A DNA stretch of 34,832 nucleotides from Gemmatimonadaceae bacterium. GTDB taxonomy: Bacteria > Gemmatimonadota > Gemmatimonadetes > Gemmatimonadales > Gemmatimonadaceae. The DNA lies in assembly GCA_025927495.1 (NCBI GenBank), contig JAICLH010000010.1, positions 1-34,832 of the forward strand, written 5' to 3'. The notes beneath the pieces are model-generated. The model made no database searches and had not been told where the DNA came from. It was given only the letters and a program-made list of their open reading frames with translations. Below are positions 27,430-34,097 of this stretch, piece by piece (position 1 is the first letter of the stretch; each line of letters starts with the position of its first letter). The translations under genes and the position numbers were made by a program.

Positions 27430-28680
27430 ATGCTGTCCGTCGCCGAGGCCGCCGCGCGCATCATCGCCGACATCGCCACTATGGGTGTGGAGCGCGTTGC
27501 GCTCCTCGACTCGTTAGGCAGGGTGCTCGCGGGGCCCCTGCGGTCGCCGCTCACGCTGCCGGCGTGGGACAACTCGGCCATGGATGGCTACGCGGTGCGC
27601 GCGGTCGACGTGCACGGCGCGCGCGCCGACGCACCGGTGTCCTTGCGCGTGCTCGAGACGGTTGCAGCCGGTGCCTTCCCGTCGCATCGCGTCGAGACGG
27701 GAACAGCCACGCGCATCATGACCGGCGCGCCGATCCCTGAAGGCGCGGACGGTGTCGTGCGCATCGAGGACACCGACGGCGGTACGGCACGGGTGACGAT
27801 CCACGATGCGCGCGACGCGGGCCGCAACGTGAGGCACCGCGGCGAGGACATCGCCGCCGGCAGCACGGTGTTCGAGCGCGGGCAACCGATCGGCCCGGCG
27901 CAGGTCGGCGTGCTCGCATCCATTGGCGCCGCCACTGTCGACGTGTACCGTCGGCCGCGCGTCGCATTTTTCGGGTCCGGCGATGAGATCGTGGACCTCG
28001 ACGGCCTCCCCGACGCGGTGGCCGGTCGCAAGGTCCTCTCGTCCAACAGCTACACCCTGCACGCGATGATTCGCGCCGCCGGCGCCGAGCCGATGAACGT
28101 GGGCCTCGCACGCGACGACCCCGGCGAGCTGCGCGACCGCATCGCGCGCAGCACCGGCTGCGATCTCCTGATCACCTCCGCGGGCATCTCGGCCGGGGCG
28201 TTCGATTATGTGCGCGACGTGCTCACTGAGTTAGGCGTGGAGATGACGGTGTGGAAGGTGCGCATGCGCCCCGGCGCGCCGCTCGGATTCGGCTGGCTCG
28301 GCAACCGGCCGTGGATCGGCCTGCCCGGCAATCCGGTCTCGACCATGGTCACGTTCGAGCTGTTCGTGCGGCCCATGCTGCTCAAGATGCTCGGCCACAC
28401 GCGCATCTATCGGCGGCCCGTCGCGGTGACGCTCGAGGAGCCGGTGACGATCGCCGCCGCGCTCACGCACTTCATGCGCGGCATCGTCAGCGTCGCCGCC
28501 GACGGCACGATGACCGCGCGCCTAACGGGACCGCAAGGATCCGGTGTGCTCACGTCGATGGCGCGCGCCAATGCGCTGCTCGTCATTCCCGAAGATCGCC
28601 CGCGCATCGAGGCGGGTGAGTCCGTCCATGCGCTGCTGCTCGGGGAGGACGCACAGTTGAGCGCCGCATTCGCCCTGTGA
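27430..28680 (+). CDS. moeA: Molybdopterin molybdenumtransferase MoeA
   Basis: Enzyme of 416 residues that inserts molybdate into adenylated molybdopterin. Conserved parts in order: AWDNSAMDGYAVR (about 38-50), RIMTGAPIPEGADGVVRIED, the FFGSGDEIVD start of the MogA-like domain, SSNSYTLHAM, TSAGISAGAFDYV, and WIGLPGNPVSTMVTF. The C-terminal beta domain is complete. One base separates it from the carboxypeptidase stop. Its TGA overlaps the GTG of the methyltransferase (GTGA). TTA-Leu codons appear only in the GTTAGGC word (27512, 28230); a third copy at 28520 reads CTA ACG (Leu-Thr). Confidence 0.95.
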   Translation: MLSVAEAAARIIADIATMGVERVALLDSLGRVLAGPLRSPLTLPAWDNSAMDGYAVRAVDVHGARADAPVSLRVLETVAAGAFPSHRVETGTATRIMTGAPIPEGADGVVRIEDTDGGTARVTIHDARDAGRNVRHRGEDIAAGSTVFERGQPIGPAQVGVLASIGAATVDVYRRPRVAFFGSGDEIVDLDGLPDAVAGRKVLSSNSYTLHAMIRAAGAEPMNVGLARDDPGELRDRIARSTGCDLLITSAGISAGAFDYVRDVLTELGVEMTVWKVRMRPGAPLGFGWLGNRPWIGLPGNPVSTMVTFELFVRPMLLKMLGHTRIYRRPVAVTLEEPVTIAAALTHFMRGIVSVAADGTMTARLTGPQGSGVLTSMARANALLVIPEDRPRIEAGESVHALLLGEDAQLSAAFAL

Positions 28681-29351
28681 GCGCGGACATCGATGCGGAC
28701 ATCGAGCGCCGTCACGTGTGCGTCACGCAGGAGGTCGATGTCGCCGGCCGGCGTGTGACGCTCCGCAAGCCGCACTCGGCCGACGCGCTCATCGACGAAG
28801 AAGACTTTTCGCGCGACGAGCGGTTGCCGTACTGGGCCGATCTCTGGCCCGCCGCCCGCGTGCTGGCGGACGAGCTCGCGCGGGAGCCGGGCCGCGGCCG
28901 CACGTGCCTCGAGCTCGGATGCGGCCTCGGTCTCACCTCGATCGCCGCGCTCCTGGCCGGCTACGAAACGACCGCCAGCGACTACTACGAGGACGCGCTG
29001 GCCTTCACGCGCGCCAACGCGTTTCACTCCGTTGGGCGCGCGCCGGCCACCCGCCTCGTCGACTGGCGCGATCTCCCCGACGATCTCGGCACCTTCGATC
29101 GCGTCGTCGCGGCCGACGTGCTCTACGAGCGCGCCTATGGTCCGTTGGTCGCGAGCGTGCTCGATCGCGCGCTGAGCGCCGATGGCATCGCGACCGTGGC
29201 CGACCCGGGCCGTATCGCGGCCGAAGTGTTCGTGCGCGCGTGCGAGGGACTCGGTCTCGCGCTCACGGGGATGCCGGTTCGCGAGATCCGCGATGGCACC
29301 GCCATCCACCGCATCCGCTTGCTGGAGCTCCGACACGCGGGCAGTCGTTAG
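28677..29351 (+). CDS. Class I SAM methyltransferase, METTL/NNMT-like (PF10294 type)
   Basis: Protein of 224 residues. It has the lead-in LPYWADLWPAARVLADEL (about 50-67), the SAM-binding LELGCGLGLTSIAAL, an acidic loop SDYYEDAL, and the post-strand-4 motif AADVLYE, the pattern of the family-16 lysine/small-molecule methyltransferases (METTL20/21-like). The start is GTG 28677, overlapping the moeA stop. The stop TAG (29349-29351) is within a CGTTAGGC word. It converges with the ETF-QO gene, 24 bases away. An ETF-beta lysine methyltransferase role is conceivable because etfBA lie next door, but the substrate is not shown by sequence. Confidence 0.78.
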   Translation: MSADIDADIERRHVCVTQEVDVAGRRVTLRKPHSADALIDEEDFSRDERLPYWADLWPAARVLADELAREPGRGRTCLELGCGLGLTSIAALLAGYETTASDYYEDALAFTRANAFHSVGRAPATRLVDWRDLPDDLGTFDRVVAADVLYERAYGPLVASVLDRALSADGIATVADPGRIAAEVFVRACEGLGLALTGMPVREIRDGTAIHRIRLLELRHAGSR

Positions 29352-29375: not shown

Positions 29376-31052
29376 TCACATGCTGCGATACTTGGCGCCG
29401 CTGCCGCCCTCGCGCGGCGTCCAGCGTGGGCCGACGTCGTCGGTGGCCTTGCAGTCCACGCAGTTCGCGGGGCTCACCACCAACCGGACTCCGTCGCGTT
29501 CGTATACGCCGGCGGGACACAGGTGCGAGTAGAAGTCGGCCATCGCCGGCGGAATGTCCTGCCCGACGATCAGATGCGACGGAATGTCGTCGCGCGTGGC
29601 GTTGCCGGACCGGAACACCGCATCGAGCTTCGAGAACGTCAGCTTGCCGTCCGGCTGCACGCGCATCACGCCGTCGGCCGTGCGCGCGACGTCCGCATCC
29701 GCCTCCGACGTGAGGCGTCCGCCGGGGAACGCGCCACGGGTGAGGGTCATAAAGCCCGCTTTGACGCCGCCTCCATAGATGCCGCCGTGCTGGAACGCGA
29801 GCCGCATGTTCCGTCGCTCATAGAGATCGCGCGTGATGTAGCTGTCCTTCACCATCTGGTCGTATGGCGCGAGTGCGGCCGCCGACGTGTCCTGTTTCTT
29901 GAGCGCATCGAAGATCGCGCGCGCCGCGAAAATCCCCGATTGCATCGCGTAGTGAATCCCCTTGAGCGACGCGACCTCCACGAAACCCGCGGCGTCGCCG
30001 GTCATCAGGAGGCCGTCGCCGTAACGCCGGTCCGGAAGCGCCCAGTATCCGCCTTCGGGAATGGTCTTCGCGCCCCACTCGACCATCTCACCGCCTTCGA
30101 GATACGAGCGAACCAGGGGGTGCAGTTTGAGCCGCTGCAGCAGCTCGTGGACATCGAGCGCGGCTTGGGGGTAGTCCAGCCCGACGACGATGCCGACCGC
30201 GACCTGTTTGCTGCCTAACGGATAGAGGAAGCTGCCGCCGAACACGTCGTTGGGCAACGGCCAGCCGAGGGTATGGACCACGGTATCCAGCGGCCGCGTC
30301 GTCTCCCACAGCTCCTTGACGCCTAACGCAAACAGCGGTGGGTTGGGCGACCCGATGCCCCGCCAGCGGCAGTACGCCTGCGTCAGCGCCCCGCGCGTCC
30401 CTTCCGCCAGCACCGTCACCCGCGCGGTGAGATCGGTGGGCGGCGTGTACCCCGGGCCCGGCGTCCCGTCGCGCGCGAGCCCCGACGGCGTCGTCCGGAC
30501 GCCGACCACCCGATCGCCCGCCACCAGGAGCGACGCCACCGGAAAGCCCGTGAACAGGTTCACCCCCGCAGCCTCCGCCTTTTCGCCTAACCACCTCACC
30601 ATCTCGCAGATGGACCCCACGTAGTTGCCGTGGTTGCGCATGGTCGGCGGCGTGGGCAGGCGGAACGCGTGCGAGCCGGTCATGAAGTACACGCGCTCGC
30701 CCGCCACCTTGCTACGGAACGGAAATTCGCTGTCCGGCAGGTCCGGAAAGAGCGCCCGGAACGCCACCGGATTCACCACCGCGCCCGAGAGACAGTGTTC
30801 GCCCAACGCACCCGCTTTCTCGAGCACCGCGATCTGGATGTCGCCTAACGATCCGCCCGCCTCGGCGTCGGCCCGCGCCAGACGCGCCAGCTCGATCGCA
30901 CCCGCCAGCCCCGCCGGCCCGCCGCCCACGAACACCACGTCCATCGGCACCGCCTCGGCGTCCGGCGGCTCCGCCACGATGAACCGATCGATGGGCAGCG
31001 CCGGTTGGTATTGGCCGGGCACGATGGGCAGCGGTCGACCGGATGGCGTCAT
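29376..31052 (-). CDS. ETF:quinone oxidoreductase, variant Fe-S site
   Basis: Membrane-associated flavoprotein of 558 residues that passes electrons from reduced ETF to the quinone pool. The FAD-binding VVFVGGGPAGLAGAIELARL (about 40-59), GEHCLSGAVV and GLLMTGDAAGFVEVASLKGIHYAMQSG are clear. The C-terminal ferredoxin-like end, CPAGVYE then NCVDCKATD, keeps C512, C531 and C534, but the fourth ligand of the usual NCVHCKTC motif is Thr537. Either the cluster is altered or another residue ligates it. Stop 29376; the gap to etfA is 51 bases. It ends the etfBA operon and would reduce the menaquinone made by the first operon of the window. Confidence 0.92.
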   Translation of the reverse strand: MTPSGRPLPIVPGQYQPALPIDRFIVAEPPDAEAVPMDVVFVGGGPAGLAGAIELARLARADAEAGGSLGDIQIAVLEKAGALGEHCLSGAVVNPVAFRALFPDLPDSEFPFRSKVAGERVYFMTGSHAFRLPTPPTMRNHGNYVGSICEMVRWLGEKAEAAGVNLFTGFPVASLLVAGDRVVGVRTTPSGLARDGTPGPGYTPPTDLTARVTVLAEGTRGALTQAYCRWRGIGSPNPPLFALGVKELWETTRPLDTVVHTLGWPLPNDVFGGSFLYPLGSKQVAVGIVVGLDYPQAALDVHELLQRLKLHPLVRSYLEGGEMVEWGAKTIPEGGYWALPDRRYGDGLLMTGDAAGFVEVASLKGIHYAMQSGIFAARAIFDALKKQDTSAAALAPYDQMVKDSYITRDLYERRNMRLAFQHGGIYGGGVKAGFMTLTRGAFPGGRLTSEADADVARTADGVMRVQPDGKLTFSKLDAVFRSGNATRDDIPSHLIVGQDIPPAMADFYSHLCPAGVYERDGVRLVVSPANCVDCKATDDVGPRWTPREGGSGAKYRSM

Positions 31053-31103: not shown

Positions 31104-32093
31104 TCAATGCGAGTGCTTCGCCTTGCGCACCGCGTCGGTGAGCACGGGCAGTACTTCGAGCACGTCGCCCACCACACCATAATCCGCGATCTTGAAGATC
31201 GGTGCCTCGCGATCTTTGTTGATCGCGACGATGGTCTTCGACGTGCGCATGCCGGCGAGGTGCTGGATCGCTCCCGAAATCCCGCACGCCACGTAGAGAT
31301 CCGGGCTCACCAACCGTCCCGTCTGTCCGATCTGGTCCGTGTGGGGACGCCAGCCATCGTCCGTCACCGCCCGCGTAGCGCCCACCGCCGCGTTTCCGAA
31401 TGCGCTCGCGAGGTCTTCGACCAACTTGAAGTTCTCGGGTGCACGGAGCCCGCGTCCGCCGCTGACGATCACCGGTGCCTCGCCTAAATCGAGCTTGGCC
31501 GTGTTGCCGGCGAGCAGCTCTTTGGGCACCACGCGCGCGGACGCCGGGTCCATGGCGGGCGCAATCGCCTCGACGCGCGCCGTCCGCGGCGCGCGCGCAG
31601 CCGTCACCGCGCCGGGCCGCAGCGACAAGAGCACCGGCGTCCCGGTGATGGACAGCGTCGCAATCACCTTGCCGGTGTTCACCGGATGCCTAACGATAAT
31701 CGCGTCGCCCGATGCCTCGAACGCCGTCACATCGGCACCCAGGGCGACGCCCAACTTTGCCGCCACGCGCGGCGCGAGATCCCGGCCCTGCGCCGACGCG
31801 CTGAAAAACGCCGCCCGATACGACCCCGCGCCGATCCGGTCCGCCGCCGTTGCGGCGACCACTTCGGGCGAATACAGCGCCAGCCCGGGATGCTCCACTA
31901 CCTCGACCACGTCGGCCCCGTGCGCCGCGATCATCTCGGTTTTCGAGGCGATGCCCGGCGCGCCGACCACCAACGCGTGCACGTCACCGCCGCCGGTCGC
32001 GTCCGCCAAGTGCCGAGCCGCCGTCACGGATTCGAGTCCCACACGGCGCAGGTCACCACCGCGCGATTCGACGAATGCGAAGGTGTTCGCCAT
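31104..32093 (-). CDS. etfA: Electron transfer flavoprotein alpha subunit
   Basis: ETF alpha subunit, 329 residues, which holds the FAD of the heterodimer. The C-terminal FAD domain has [19 protein letters not shown], the [20 protein letters not shown] block, IVAINKD and ADYGVVGD. The N-terminal half is the usual variable domain. Start ATG (32093-32091) overlaps the etfB TGA by one base (TGATG). One copy of the 8-base word at 31688 reads as Val-Arg-His in this gene, a different frame from most copies. Confidence 0.97.
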
Positions 32094-32845
32094 CAGAGCA
32101 CCTTCGCTTCGGTTTGCAGCAGCCGCACCAGCTCGGGCACGGCGGCCGGCCCTTCACCGACGATGCGTCCGCCTGTTCGCTCCGGTGGGAGCTCCATCTT
32201 GGTCACTTTCACTCGGGATTCACCGACCTGGGCCGGTTTCACCTCGAGCGGTTTCTTCTTCGCCGCCATGATGCCCTTGAGCGACGGCAGCCGCGGCCGC
32301 GCGATGCCTTCATCGATCGTCACCACCGCCGGCAACGGAAACTCGAGCACATCCGCCGCGCCCTCGAGCTCGCGCCGCGCGGTGCCCCGCCCGTTGGCGA
32401 TCGTGAGCTGCGATGCCGCTGAAACGCATGGGACTCCCAACAATTCGGCGGTCATCGGCCCGACGCTCTGATTCGCCGCGTCGATCGCCATCCGGCCGAA
32501 CAGCATGAGATCGTAGCCGCCGCCCTCGAGCTCATCCGCCAGCACACGCGCGATGGCCAGCGCATCGGCGGGCACCGCGTCGGTTTTGAGTTGAACCGCC
32601 TTGTCGGCACCCATGCTCAACGCTTTGCGCAGCGTTTCCTGCACGGTGTCCGGGCCCATCGAGATCACCGTCACGTCGCCGGCGCCTTCCCGCTCCTTGA
32701 GCTGCAGCGCGGCTTCCACCGCGAAACCGTCGAAATCCGCGATGTCGAACTTCACGCCCGTCTCATCGACGGACATGCCGTTCGCCGCGATCTTGAAGCG
32801 CGTCTCCATGTCGGCGGCGCGCTTGATGCACACGGCTATCTTCAC
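32093..32845 (-). CDS. etfB: Electron transfer flavoprotein beta subunit
   Basis: ETF beta subunit, 250 residues, which forms the dehydrogenase-docking part. Typical segments: MKIAVCIKRAADMETRF at the start, DFDGFAVEAALQLKE, VTVISMGP, DLMLFGRMAIDAANQSVGP and the recognition-loop region SLKGIMAAKKKPLEV with three lysines at 196-198. The GTG start at 32845 has GGGAG upstream. The lysines correspond in place to those methylated by METTL20-type enzymes in other organisms. It is followed directly by etfA. Confidence 0.96.
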   Translation of the reverse strand: MKIAVCIKRAADMETRFKIAANGMSVDETGVKFDIADFDGFAVEAALQLKEREGAGDVTVISMGPDTVQETLRKALSMGADKAVQLKTDAVPADALAIARVLADELEGGGYDLMLFGRMAIDAANQSVGPMTAELLGVPCVSAASQLTIANGRGTARRELEGAADVLEFPLPAVVTIDEGIARPRLPSLKGIMAAKKKPLEVKPAQVGESRVKVTKMELPPERTGGRIVGEGPAAVPELVRLLQTEAKVL

Positions 32846-32924: not shown

Positions 32925-34097
32925 TCACTGGAAGGCGCTCAGGCCCGTGATCGCTTGGCCTAACACAAGCGTGTGCACGTCGTGCGTCCCCTCGTACGTG
33001 TACACGCTCTCCAGATTCGCCATGTGGCGCATCGATGCGTACTCGGCCAGAATCCCGTTCGCGCCCAACAAACGGCGCGCTTCGCGCGCGACATCCGTCG
33101 CCATGCTCACGTTGTTCCGCTTCGCCAACGACACCTGCTGCGGCGTCATCGTCCCCGCGTCCTTGAGCCGGCCCAGGTGCAACGTCAACAGCTGCCCCTT
33201 CACGATCTCCGTCAACATCTCCGCCAGCCGCGCCTGCTGCAGCTGAAACGCGCCGATCGGCTTGCCGAACATCACGCGGTTGCACGCGTACGACGCCGCT
33301 TCCTCGTAGCACGCCATCGCCGCGCCGACGCTGCCCCACGCAATGCCGTACCGCGCTTGCGTCAGACACATGAGTGGGCTCTTGAGGCCGCCGCTCTTCG
33401 GCAGAATCGCGTCGGCCGGAACGCGCACATCCTGGAGCACCAGCTCGCTCGTGTCCGACGCGCGCAGCGACAACTTGCCTTTCTGGTCGCGCGCGGTGAA
33501 TCCAGGCGAATTCGTGGGTACCAGGAATCCGCGAATCGAACGCTCGTCTTTGTCGCCGTTCGTCTTCGCCCAGACCACCGCCACCTGCGCCGTCGAACCG
33601 TTCGTGATCCACATTTTCGCGCCGTTCAACACCCACGTGCCGTCCGACTGCTCGCGCGCCATCGTGATCATGCCCGCCGGATTCGACCCGTAGTCCGGTT
33701 CCGTTAGGCCGAAGCATCCGATGATCTCGCCGTTCGCCATCTTCGGCAGGTAGGTGCGCTTCTGCGCATCGCTCCCGAACGCGAAGATCGGATACATCAC
33801 GAGCGCGCCCTGCACCGACGCGAACGACCGCACGCCCGAGTCTCCGCGCTCGAGCTCCTGCATGATCAATCCGTACGACACGTTGTTGAGTCCCGCGCAG
33901 CCGTACTCCTCCGGCAGATTGGCGCCGAACACGCCGAGCGACGCCAGCTCGGGAACCAGGCCGCGAGGAAAACGGCCTTCCACATAGCAGTCGCCGATGA
34001 TCGGCAGCACGCGCTCGTCCACGAAGCGGTGCACGCTATCCCGCACGGCGCGCTCTTCTTCGGAGAGCGCGCTGTCGATGCCATAGAAGTCGGTCAT
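32925..34097 (-). CDS. Acyl-CoA dehydrogenase, glutaryl-CoA dehydrogenase-like
   Basis: FAD acyl-CoA dehydrogenase of 390 residues. It has LPEEYGCAGLNNVSYGLIMQ, the RSFASVQGALVMYPI segment, GCFGLTEPDYGSNPAGM and the C-terminal YEGTHDVHTLVLGQAITG with the catalytic base at E369, all closest to glutaryl-CoA dehydrogenases among family members I know. These oxidise and decarboxylate glutaryl-CoA in lysine/tryptophan breakdown. Electrons go to ETF, encoded next. A related broad-range dehydrogenase cannot be excluded. ATG 34097. The word at 33702 reads Leu-Thr (CTA ACG) and the one at 32958 Leu-Gly here. Confidence 0.92.
   Translation of the reverse strand: MTDFYGIDSALSEEERAVRDSVHRFVDERVLPIIGDCYVEGRFPRGLVPELASLGVFGANLPEEYGCAGLNNVSYGLIMQELERGDSGVRSFASVQGALVMYPIFAFGSDAQKRTYLPKMANGEIIGCFGLTEPDYGSNPAGMITMAREQSDGTWVLNGAKMWITNGSTAQVAVVWAKTNGDKDERSIRGFLVPTNSPGFTARDQKGKLSLRASDTSELVLQDVRVPADAILPKSGGLKSPLMCLTQARYGIAWGSVGAAMACYEEAASYACNRVMFGKPIGAFQLQQARLAEMLTEIVKGQLLTLHLGRLKDAGTMTPQQVSLAKRNNVSMATDVAREARRLLGANGILAEYASMRHMANLESVYTYEGTHDVHTLVLGQAITGLSAFQ

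Follow-up and report, generated by a model that had tools for sequence, protein, structure and literature searches.

An ETF-quinone oxidoreductase variant that lacks one cysteine ligand of the iron-sulfur cluster is found across a bacterial clade

Introduction

ETF-quinone oxidoreductase (ETF-QO) is a central enzyme of respiration through which electrons derived from the breakdown of fatty acids reach the quinone pool. The gene for the human enzyme is a disease gene. Among solved structures, only pig ETF-QO sequences (2gmh/2gmj) were matched as ETF-QO, with one [4Fe-4S] cluster. According to PMC13296446, the pig cluster has a potential of +47 mV, the FAD of ETF-QO one of +28/-6 mV, and ETF one of -14/-36 mV. 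The ETF-QOs encoded by eight plasmid-borne genes of Pseudomonadota likewise have a one-cluster architecture. The FixC/EtfC protein of EtfABCX (7koe_C), a bifurcating complex according to the entry title, has a related flavin domain (Z score of 34.0), and its aligned part lacks a fused cluster domain. Mycobacterial EtfD, the nearest parallel found, also connects ETF to menaquinone, and its Thr539, which replaces a Cys present in Hdr, is accompanied by a three-iron cluster; however, according to the same source, EtfD is not homologous to ETF-QO, and four Cys still bind its linear [3Fe-4S] cluster (PMC13083937). A three-Cys or two-cluster ETF-QO was not among the matches listed for the literature on ETF-QO or Gemmatimonadota, a scope outside which most subscription journals lie.

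Here, we analyze the ETF-QO encoded in a stretch of 34,832 nucleotides from a Gemmatimonadaceae bacterium (GCA_025927495.1, contig JAICLH010000010.1; hereafter, the window). It is a variant of the known enzyme, found across a clade.

Results

In the window, the ETF-QO gene is the last of a run consisting of an acyl-CoA dehydrogenase (ACAD) gene, etfB, etfA, and the ETF-QO gene, with etfB-etfA directly upstream (Table 1). Its product scored above the gathering thresholds of the Pfam quinone-binding domain PF21162 (87.2 bits; gathering score, 27.7) and of Fer4_ETF_QO, PF05187 (35.4 bits; gathering score, 24), and it is the sole PF05187 match of its own assembly (3.55 Mb; 74.78% complete). Phmmer aligned residues 35 to 558 with pig ETF-QO 2gmh (E value, 4.8e-94). 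A structure model (pLDDT, 90.4) matched, at the level of the overall fold, 2gmh_A over 518 residues (model residues 31 to 558; Z score, 44.6; 1.9 A; 36% identity) and followed the pig fold through to the C terminus. Shared with the pig protein are domains for FAD, quinone, and, at the C terminus, the cluster, together with three of its four ligand Cys and the Tyr of CPAGVYE.

Table 1. Features of the window. Pig residue numbers are chain numbering counted from the phmmer alignment
Feature	Position	Strand	Basis or observation
MoeA gene, downstream of ETF-QO	27430..28680	(+)	
METTL21-like lysine methyltransferase gene, convergent with ETF-QO	28677..29348	(+)	
ETF-QO homologue, 558 aa	29376..31052	(-)	Pfam PF21162 and PF05187; phmmer versus 2gmh
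etfA, ETF alpha subunit	31104..32093	(-)	PF01012, PF00766
etfB, ETF beta subunit	32093..32845	(-)	PF01012
ACAD, upstream	32925..34097	(-)	Start of the run ACAD-etfB-etfA-ETF-QO
Asn484-x-Thr486-Arg487, second signature of the three-Cys clade	29592..29603	(-)	Four-ligand proteins: mostly T-x-H-[ED]
Cys512, putative cluster ligand (pig C528)	29517..29519	(-)	Cys in 218/218 distinct sequences
Cys531 (pig C553)	29460..29462	(-)	Cys in 218/218 distinct sequences
Asp533 (pig H555)	29454..29456	(-)	D in 124/124 Thr-type, Q in 3/3 Ile-type, H in 91/91 four-ligand rows
Cys534 (pig C556)	29451..29453	(-)	Cys in 218/218 distinct sequences; Pro in the later loci L320 and L321
Ala536 (pig T558)	29445..29447	(-)	A in 123/124 Thr-type, A in 3/3 Ile-type, T in 89/91 four-ligand rows
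Thr537, fourth-ligand position (pig C559)	29442..29444	(-)	C in 91, T in 124, and I in 3 of 218 distinct sequences

A sequence-only reading of positions 29376-29533, which correspond to the C-terminal part of Fer4_ETF_QO, had proposed that Cys512, Cys531, and Cys534 are kept and that Thr537 replaces the fourth Cys. This is borne out by the 558-aa ORF and its alignment with 2gmh, and the coding-strand codons at the motif (AAC TGC GTG GAC TGC AAG GCC ACC) are as claimed. The C-terminal stretch reads ...PANCVDCKATDDVGPRWTPREGG..., and the canonical set of four Cys ligands is incomplete, with T537 at the position of pig C559. Further differences from the pig protein are Ala for T558, Asp for H555, and a shorter loop. 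In the Pseudomonadota proteins, which like the window protein have no upstream Cys motif, all four Cys are present in 8/8 (seven by pattern, the eighth by eye), unlike in the window.

The three-Cys form is widespread in the window's phylum. When genome contigs of 84,980 species were scanned with patterns from the window protein, the best 80 of 155 relatives were kept, and all 80 read Cys-Cys-Cys-Thr at the four positions. They were mostly from Gemmatimonadetes or Gemmatimonadota, and the two nearest (89% and 88% identity) belong to a Gemmatimonadetes and a Gemmatimonadaceae MAG. A search of 150 genomes of the phylum gave some match in 117, and 94 ETF-QO C termini were read; the fourth position was Thr in 92, Ile in 2, and Cys in none (this set overlaps in part with that of the scan). 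The alignment of the phylum's ETF-QOs, proposed earlier as a check, thus reveals a clade-wide trait. In the family of the window, this ETF-QO was without any match in at least 20 genomes, and in some (L115 and L117) the sole match was a remote flavoprotein that carries Cys-rich motifs farther along the chain.

Four other groups were reached via loci labelled Vicinamibacteria, Planctomycetota, Bdellovibrionota, and proteobacterium, and the following counts are of loci read among the matches listed. The group of genome G155 (65 loci) had 60 CCCC, 3 CCCT, and 2 CCPC; that of G150 (63 loci) had 56 CCCC (L337 in two pieces), 5 CCCT, 1 CCCI, and 1 cut short; that of G151 (21 loci) had 12 CCCC and 9 CCCT; and that of G154 (51 loci) had 50 CCCC (L239 in two pieces) and 1 CCCT. 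Genome G154 carries one three-Cys (Thr) and one four-ligand ETF-QO (C10:46001-47659 and C104:27203-28885) and, provided that the bin is not mixed, offers a chance to compare the two forms directly.

For the alignment, 15 duplicates were removed from 233 rows; the window duplicate (L001), FixC-like and other flavoproteins (L114-L120), and L167, which is cut short, had been left out before. The resulting 218 distinct sequences comprised 124 CCCT, 3 CCCI, and 91 CCCC, given as shares of 218 because the row groups (Thr-type, Ile-type, and four-ligand) are defined by residue 537 itself. No residue other than Cys, Thr, or Ile was found at this position, a restriction that exceeds chance, and Ser, Val, and Ala never occurred there in three-Cys rows. 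After a search within its family, the Ile form was readable in six genomes in all (G038, G043, G384, G787, G788, and G790), all with NCVQC[GN]AI[ST]; a further Ile-type locus (L387, genome G791) ends before the motif and is outside the six. Cys512, Cys531, and Cys534 were all present in 127/127 distinct three-Cys rows. Completion of the cluster by a fourth Cys from another part of the protein was rejected, since among the six Cys of the window protein only these three are universal; at position 149, for example, Cys is present in 73% of Thr-type but 0/3 Ile-type rows.

The ligand position is not the only one that differs between the groups. Position 486 is H in the 91 four-ligand rows, T in the 124 Thr-type rows, and T (2 rows) or S (1 row) in the Ile-type rows, and position 487 is E (65) or D (23) in the 91 four-ligand rows and R in 124/124 Thr-type and 3/3 Ile-type rows. 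Likewise, all 124 Thr-type and all 3 Ile-type rows have G at position 541 (D in 78 and C in 13 four-ligand rows), R at position 543 (R in 4/91 four-ligand rows), and W at position 326 (Y in 89/91 four-ligand rows). The stretch from C534 to residue 550 comprises 17 residues in 127/127 three-Cys rows and 21 in 90/91 four-ligand rows. Judging from the alignment, the changes in loop length and at positions 486, 487, 533, 536, 541, and 543 are coordinated with the loss of the ligand. At the DNA level, 166 distinct contexts of the Thr motif, retrieved with a pattern that itself required D533 and T537, use all four Thr codons at position 537 and both Asp codons at position 533. This mixed codon usage points to selection on the residues.

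The four-ligand ETF-QOs of the groups of G150, G151, G154, and G155 have the same flavin domain and the same four cluster-domain positions as the window protein, but have three additional Cys before the CPA motif as well as D or C at position 541. The extra Cys, located before Cys512 and mostly arranged as C-x3-C...C-x3-CP, were present in 91/91 distinct four-ligand rows and in 176/176 intact CCCC loci of these groups (L135-L161, L169-L191, L201-L212, L214-L242, and others); pig ETF-QO has none of the three. When all loci were classified by a stricter pattern, with duplicates retained, 142 had 7 Cys plus Asp, 18 had 8 Cys, 2 were CCPC, 181 were Thr-type, 9 were Ile-type, and 7 were plain four-Cys. 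The last 7 all came from Pseudomonadota plasmids, and the eighth plasmid gene was plain four-Cys by eye. The four-ligand forms thus carry 7 to 8 possible ligands, as if they were two-cluster ferredoxins, and a second cluster may be bound there. In the two CCPC loci (L320 and L321, genomes G169 and G197), Pro replaces the second Cys of CxxCxxC, and another Cys follows farther along (ENCLHPKICEFACP); this is a different ligand rearrangement, located beside the three-Cys clade on the tree.

A first tree was calculated from 93 of the 218 distinct rows with the C-terminal columns excluded. A branch with an SH-aLRT of 100 separated all three-Cys rows from the others, and 2 changes suffice to account for the three states at position 537. 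In a second tree, built from the flavin domain and rooted on five FixC rows, the three-Cys clade (100/100) lay inside the ETF-QO side, apart from FixC, and grouped with the Pseudomonadota form (100/100) and the CCPC pair (100/100; support for the grouping, 85/95). The CCPC pair, in which the upstream Cys are still present, was nearest to the three-Cys clade (95/91). Forms with 7 to 8 Cys were scattered at the base of a backbone that is only partly supported and has a long root branch, and the flavoproteins L115 and L117 were also on the ETF-QO side, on a very long branch. We conclude that the three-Cys ETF-QO is one clade with one origin, comprising a Thr and an Ile sub-clade. By this phylogenetic reading, the trait is fixed in one bacterial lineage and is no feature of a single odd protein.

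Neighbor clustering was swamped by frames opposite to or overlapping real genes, and only the rechecked etfBA, ACAD, and MoeA results were used. Among loci with 1.9 kb or more of sequence upstream, both etfA and etfB preceded the ETF-QO gene in 27/64 Thr-type and 0/2 Ile-type loci; flanks of that length were present for three-Cys loci only. With at least 1.5 kb upstream, mostly short flanks, and the window's own EtfA as the query, a window-type etfA was directly upstream in 41/105 Thr-type and 2/67 four-ligand loci, figures that do not support a contrast between the two forms. ACAD relatives (74 to 96% identity) were near the three-Cys ETF-QO in 17 loci. MoeA, encoded downstream, is a conserved neighbor with relatives in 39 further ETF-QO loci and has no clear link to the enzyme.

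The sequence-only reading had further proposed that the altered site might suit low-potential menaquinone. Quinone markers (UbiG, PF02621 for MqnA/MqnD, and MenD) were therefore compared at curated cutoffs. The comparison covered 63 genomes selected among those whose ETF-QO had been read: 34 with the three-Cys form, 28 with the four-ligand form, and 1 with both. PF02621 or MenD was above the cutoff in 33/34 three-Cys genomes, 27/28 four-ligand genomes, and the genome with both. Overall, PF02621 was found in 39/63 genomes (the match of G161 being weak and partial), MenD in 23/63, and either one in 61/63 (exceptions, G436 and G517). UbiG was above the cutoff in 3/63 genomes (G167, G589, and G595), which amounts to 0/34 three-Cys, 3/28 four-ligand, and 0/1 with both; below the cutoff, all 63 genomes match UbiG through other methyltransferases. 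PF02621 is imperfectly specific, as it also matched the controls Thermotoga maritima and Sulfolobus acidocaldarius, in which menaquinone made by this route is presumably not to be expected. Since both ETF-QO forms occur with menaquinone markers, menaquinone does not explain the difference between them; it was rejected as a discriminator, and the proposed adaptation to menaquinone is not supported.

Discussion

The window protein is homologous to ETF-QO and is encoded in a run with ACAD and etfBA. It lacks one cluster ligand and retains three Cys, and this state is fixed in one clade. We favor, with somewhat better than even confidence, the view that it is a true ETF-QO homologue whose three-Cys site (Cys512, Cys531, and Cys534) has a non-ligating Thr or Ile in fourth place and most likely binds a [3Fe-4S]+/0 cluster. 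Electrons would pass from ETF via the iron-sulfur center and FAD to (mena)quinone, and the cluster would be bound at the three Cys and hold three irons. The three Cys are kept in every three-Cys row and no further Cys is universal, which suggests that a cluster is probably kept. The Ile sub-clade manages without Asp533, Thr537, and Asp538, and, as far as the six readable Ile-type genomes go, these residues are not a shared replacement ligand. The coordinated sequence changes, the single origin on the trees, and the confident model with the pig fold also speak for this view, and succinate dehydrogenase and mycobacterial EtfD offer precedents. A [3Fe-4S] cluster would be the simplest single state for the whole three-Cys clade, and the lineage probably runs its ETF-QO on such a different, three-iron cluster.

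The strongest competing view is a [4Fe-4S] cluster with a non-Cys fourth ligand, namely Asp533, Thr537, or water in the Thr sub-clade; for the Ile sub-clade, the ligand would be water or some other residue. Electrons would then be transferred as in pig ETF-QO at a shifted potential. We regard this as a serious possibility, though not a likely one. The residues in the fourth place can be read both ways, since Ile in the sister sub-clade fits a non-ligating residue and the Thr found in the window's sub-clade is a possible ligand. All 124 Thr-type rows share Asp533 and Asp538, and three-Cys rows have nothing but Thr or Ile at position 537, although an idle filler would be expected to be more variable; Thr or Asp could be an oxygen ligand. 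The use of both Asp codons and all four Thr codons also argues for this view. Asp-ligated cubanes are known, for example in Pyrococcus ferredoxin. Moreover, [4Fe-4S] clusters held by three Cys exist in T. maritima LarE and in TtuA (PMC9283937). On the other hand, the sister sub-clade has Q533, I537, and S/T538, so that the loss of the Cys, which is one event on the tree, did not depend on these residues. In addition, an open cluster site is generally commoner in enzymes whose substrate binds there than in electron carriers.

The same data bear on the Asp ligands named by the sequence-only reading. Its expectation of an altered cluster stands insofar as one ligand is missing, no universal Cys replaces it, and a changed cluster is likely; the proposed Asp ligation has lost ground. 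Asp539 of the window is V or I in 121/124 Thr-type rows. Asp538 is also D in 88/91 four-ligand proteins and is S or T in the Ile sub-clade. Asp533 is invariant in the Thr-type rows but is Gln in the Ile sub-clade.

A site without a redox-active cluster, either empty or occupied by another metal, with electrons passing from ETF to FAD directly, is improbable. In its favor, a flavin domain can exist without a fused ferredoxin domain, as none is seen in the aligned part of FixC (the match of 7koe_C stops at model residue 440), and the three-Cys clade has the fewest Cys in the cluster domain of all groups read; however, the whole clade keeps the three Cys and the motif around them unchanged, and a dead site would drift. 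A sequencing, assembly, or translation artefact can be set aside as having a negligible chance, because, although the window comes from a fragmented assembly (321 contigs; 74.78% complete), Thr recurs in 92/94 phylum loci and in all of the best 80 of 155 scan relatives, with four Thr codons over the 166 distinct DNA contexts.

With regard to the [3Fe-4S] reading, the potential of such a cluster in succinate dehydrogenase would suit the pig ETF and ETF-QO values. The window ETF-QO naturally carries Ala (Ala536) instead of the Thr of CKTC, and replacement of this Thr in R. sphaeroides (T525A) reportedly lowers the [4Fe-4S] potential. In succinate dehydrogenase, a [3Fe-4S] cluster sits beside the quinone (PMC8097209). 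However, [3Fe-4S] ferredoxins span -0.4 to -0.1 V (PMC9044450), so the potential of a cluster in the window protein cannot be predicted.

A clade that keeps ETF-QO without one ligand is a natural ligand-swap experiment, which asks what cluster the passage of electrons from ETF to quinone requires. The rooted tree is consistent with stepwise loss, and its simplest reading would be loss of a second cluster site and, in the three-Cys clade, of one more ligand; as the CCPC pair retains these additional Cys, at least two losses of the upstream site would be required. More broadly, and with slightly less than even confidence, we propose that the ferredoxin-like C-terminal part of ETF-QO has eroded stepwise, from an ancestral two-cluster form with 7 to 8 Cys, via a four-Cys one-cluster form in Pseudomonadota and mitochondria, to a three-Cys form with a native [3Fe-4S] cluster in a Gemmatimonadota-centred clade. 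If this is true, the textbook enzyme with one [4Fe-4S] cluster is only one of several natural designs, and the forms with 7 to 8 Cys raise the possibility of a two-cluster ETF-QO in many bacteria.

The METTL21-like ORF next to the ETF-QO gene matched Methyltransf_16 (E value, 4.1e-7) and the METTL21A structure 4lec (E value, 3.9e-6), and its relatives were found in 16 further three-Cys ETF-QO loci, some perhaps of the same genomes. EtfB carries AAKKK after its loop, a sequence much like the site methylated by METTL20 in human ETF-beta. Methylation of a site in ETF-beta by human METTL20 is described in PMC4148887, and the METTL21-like protein is perhaps an ETF methyltransferase.
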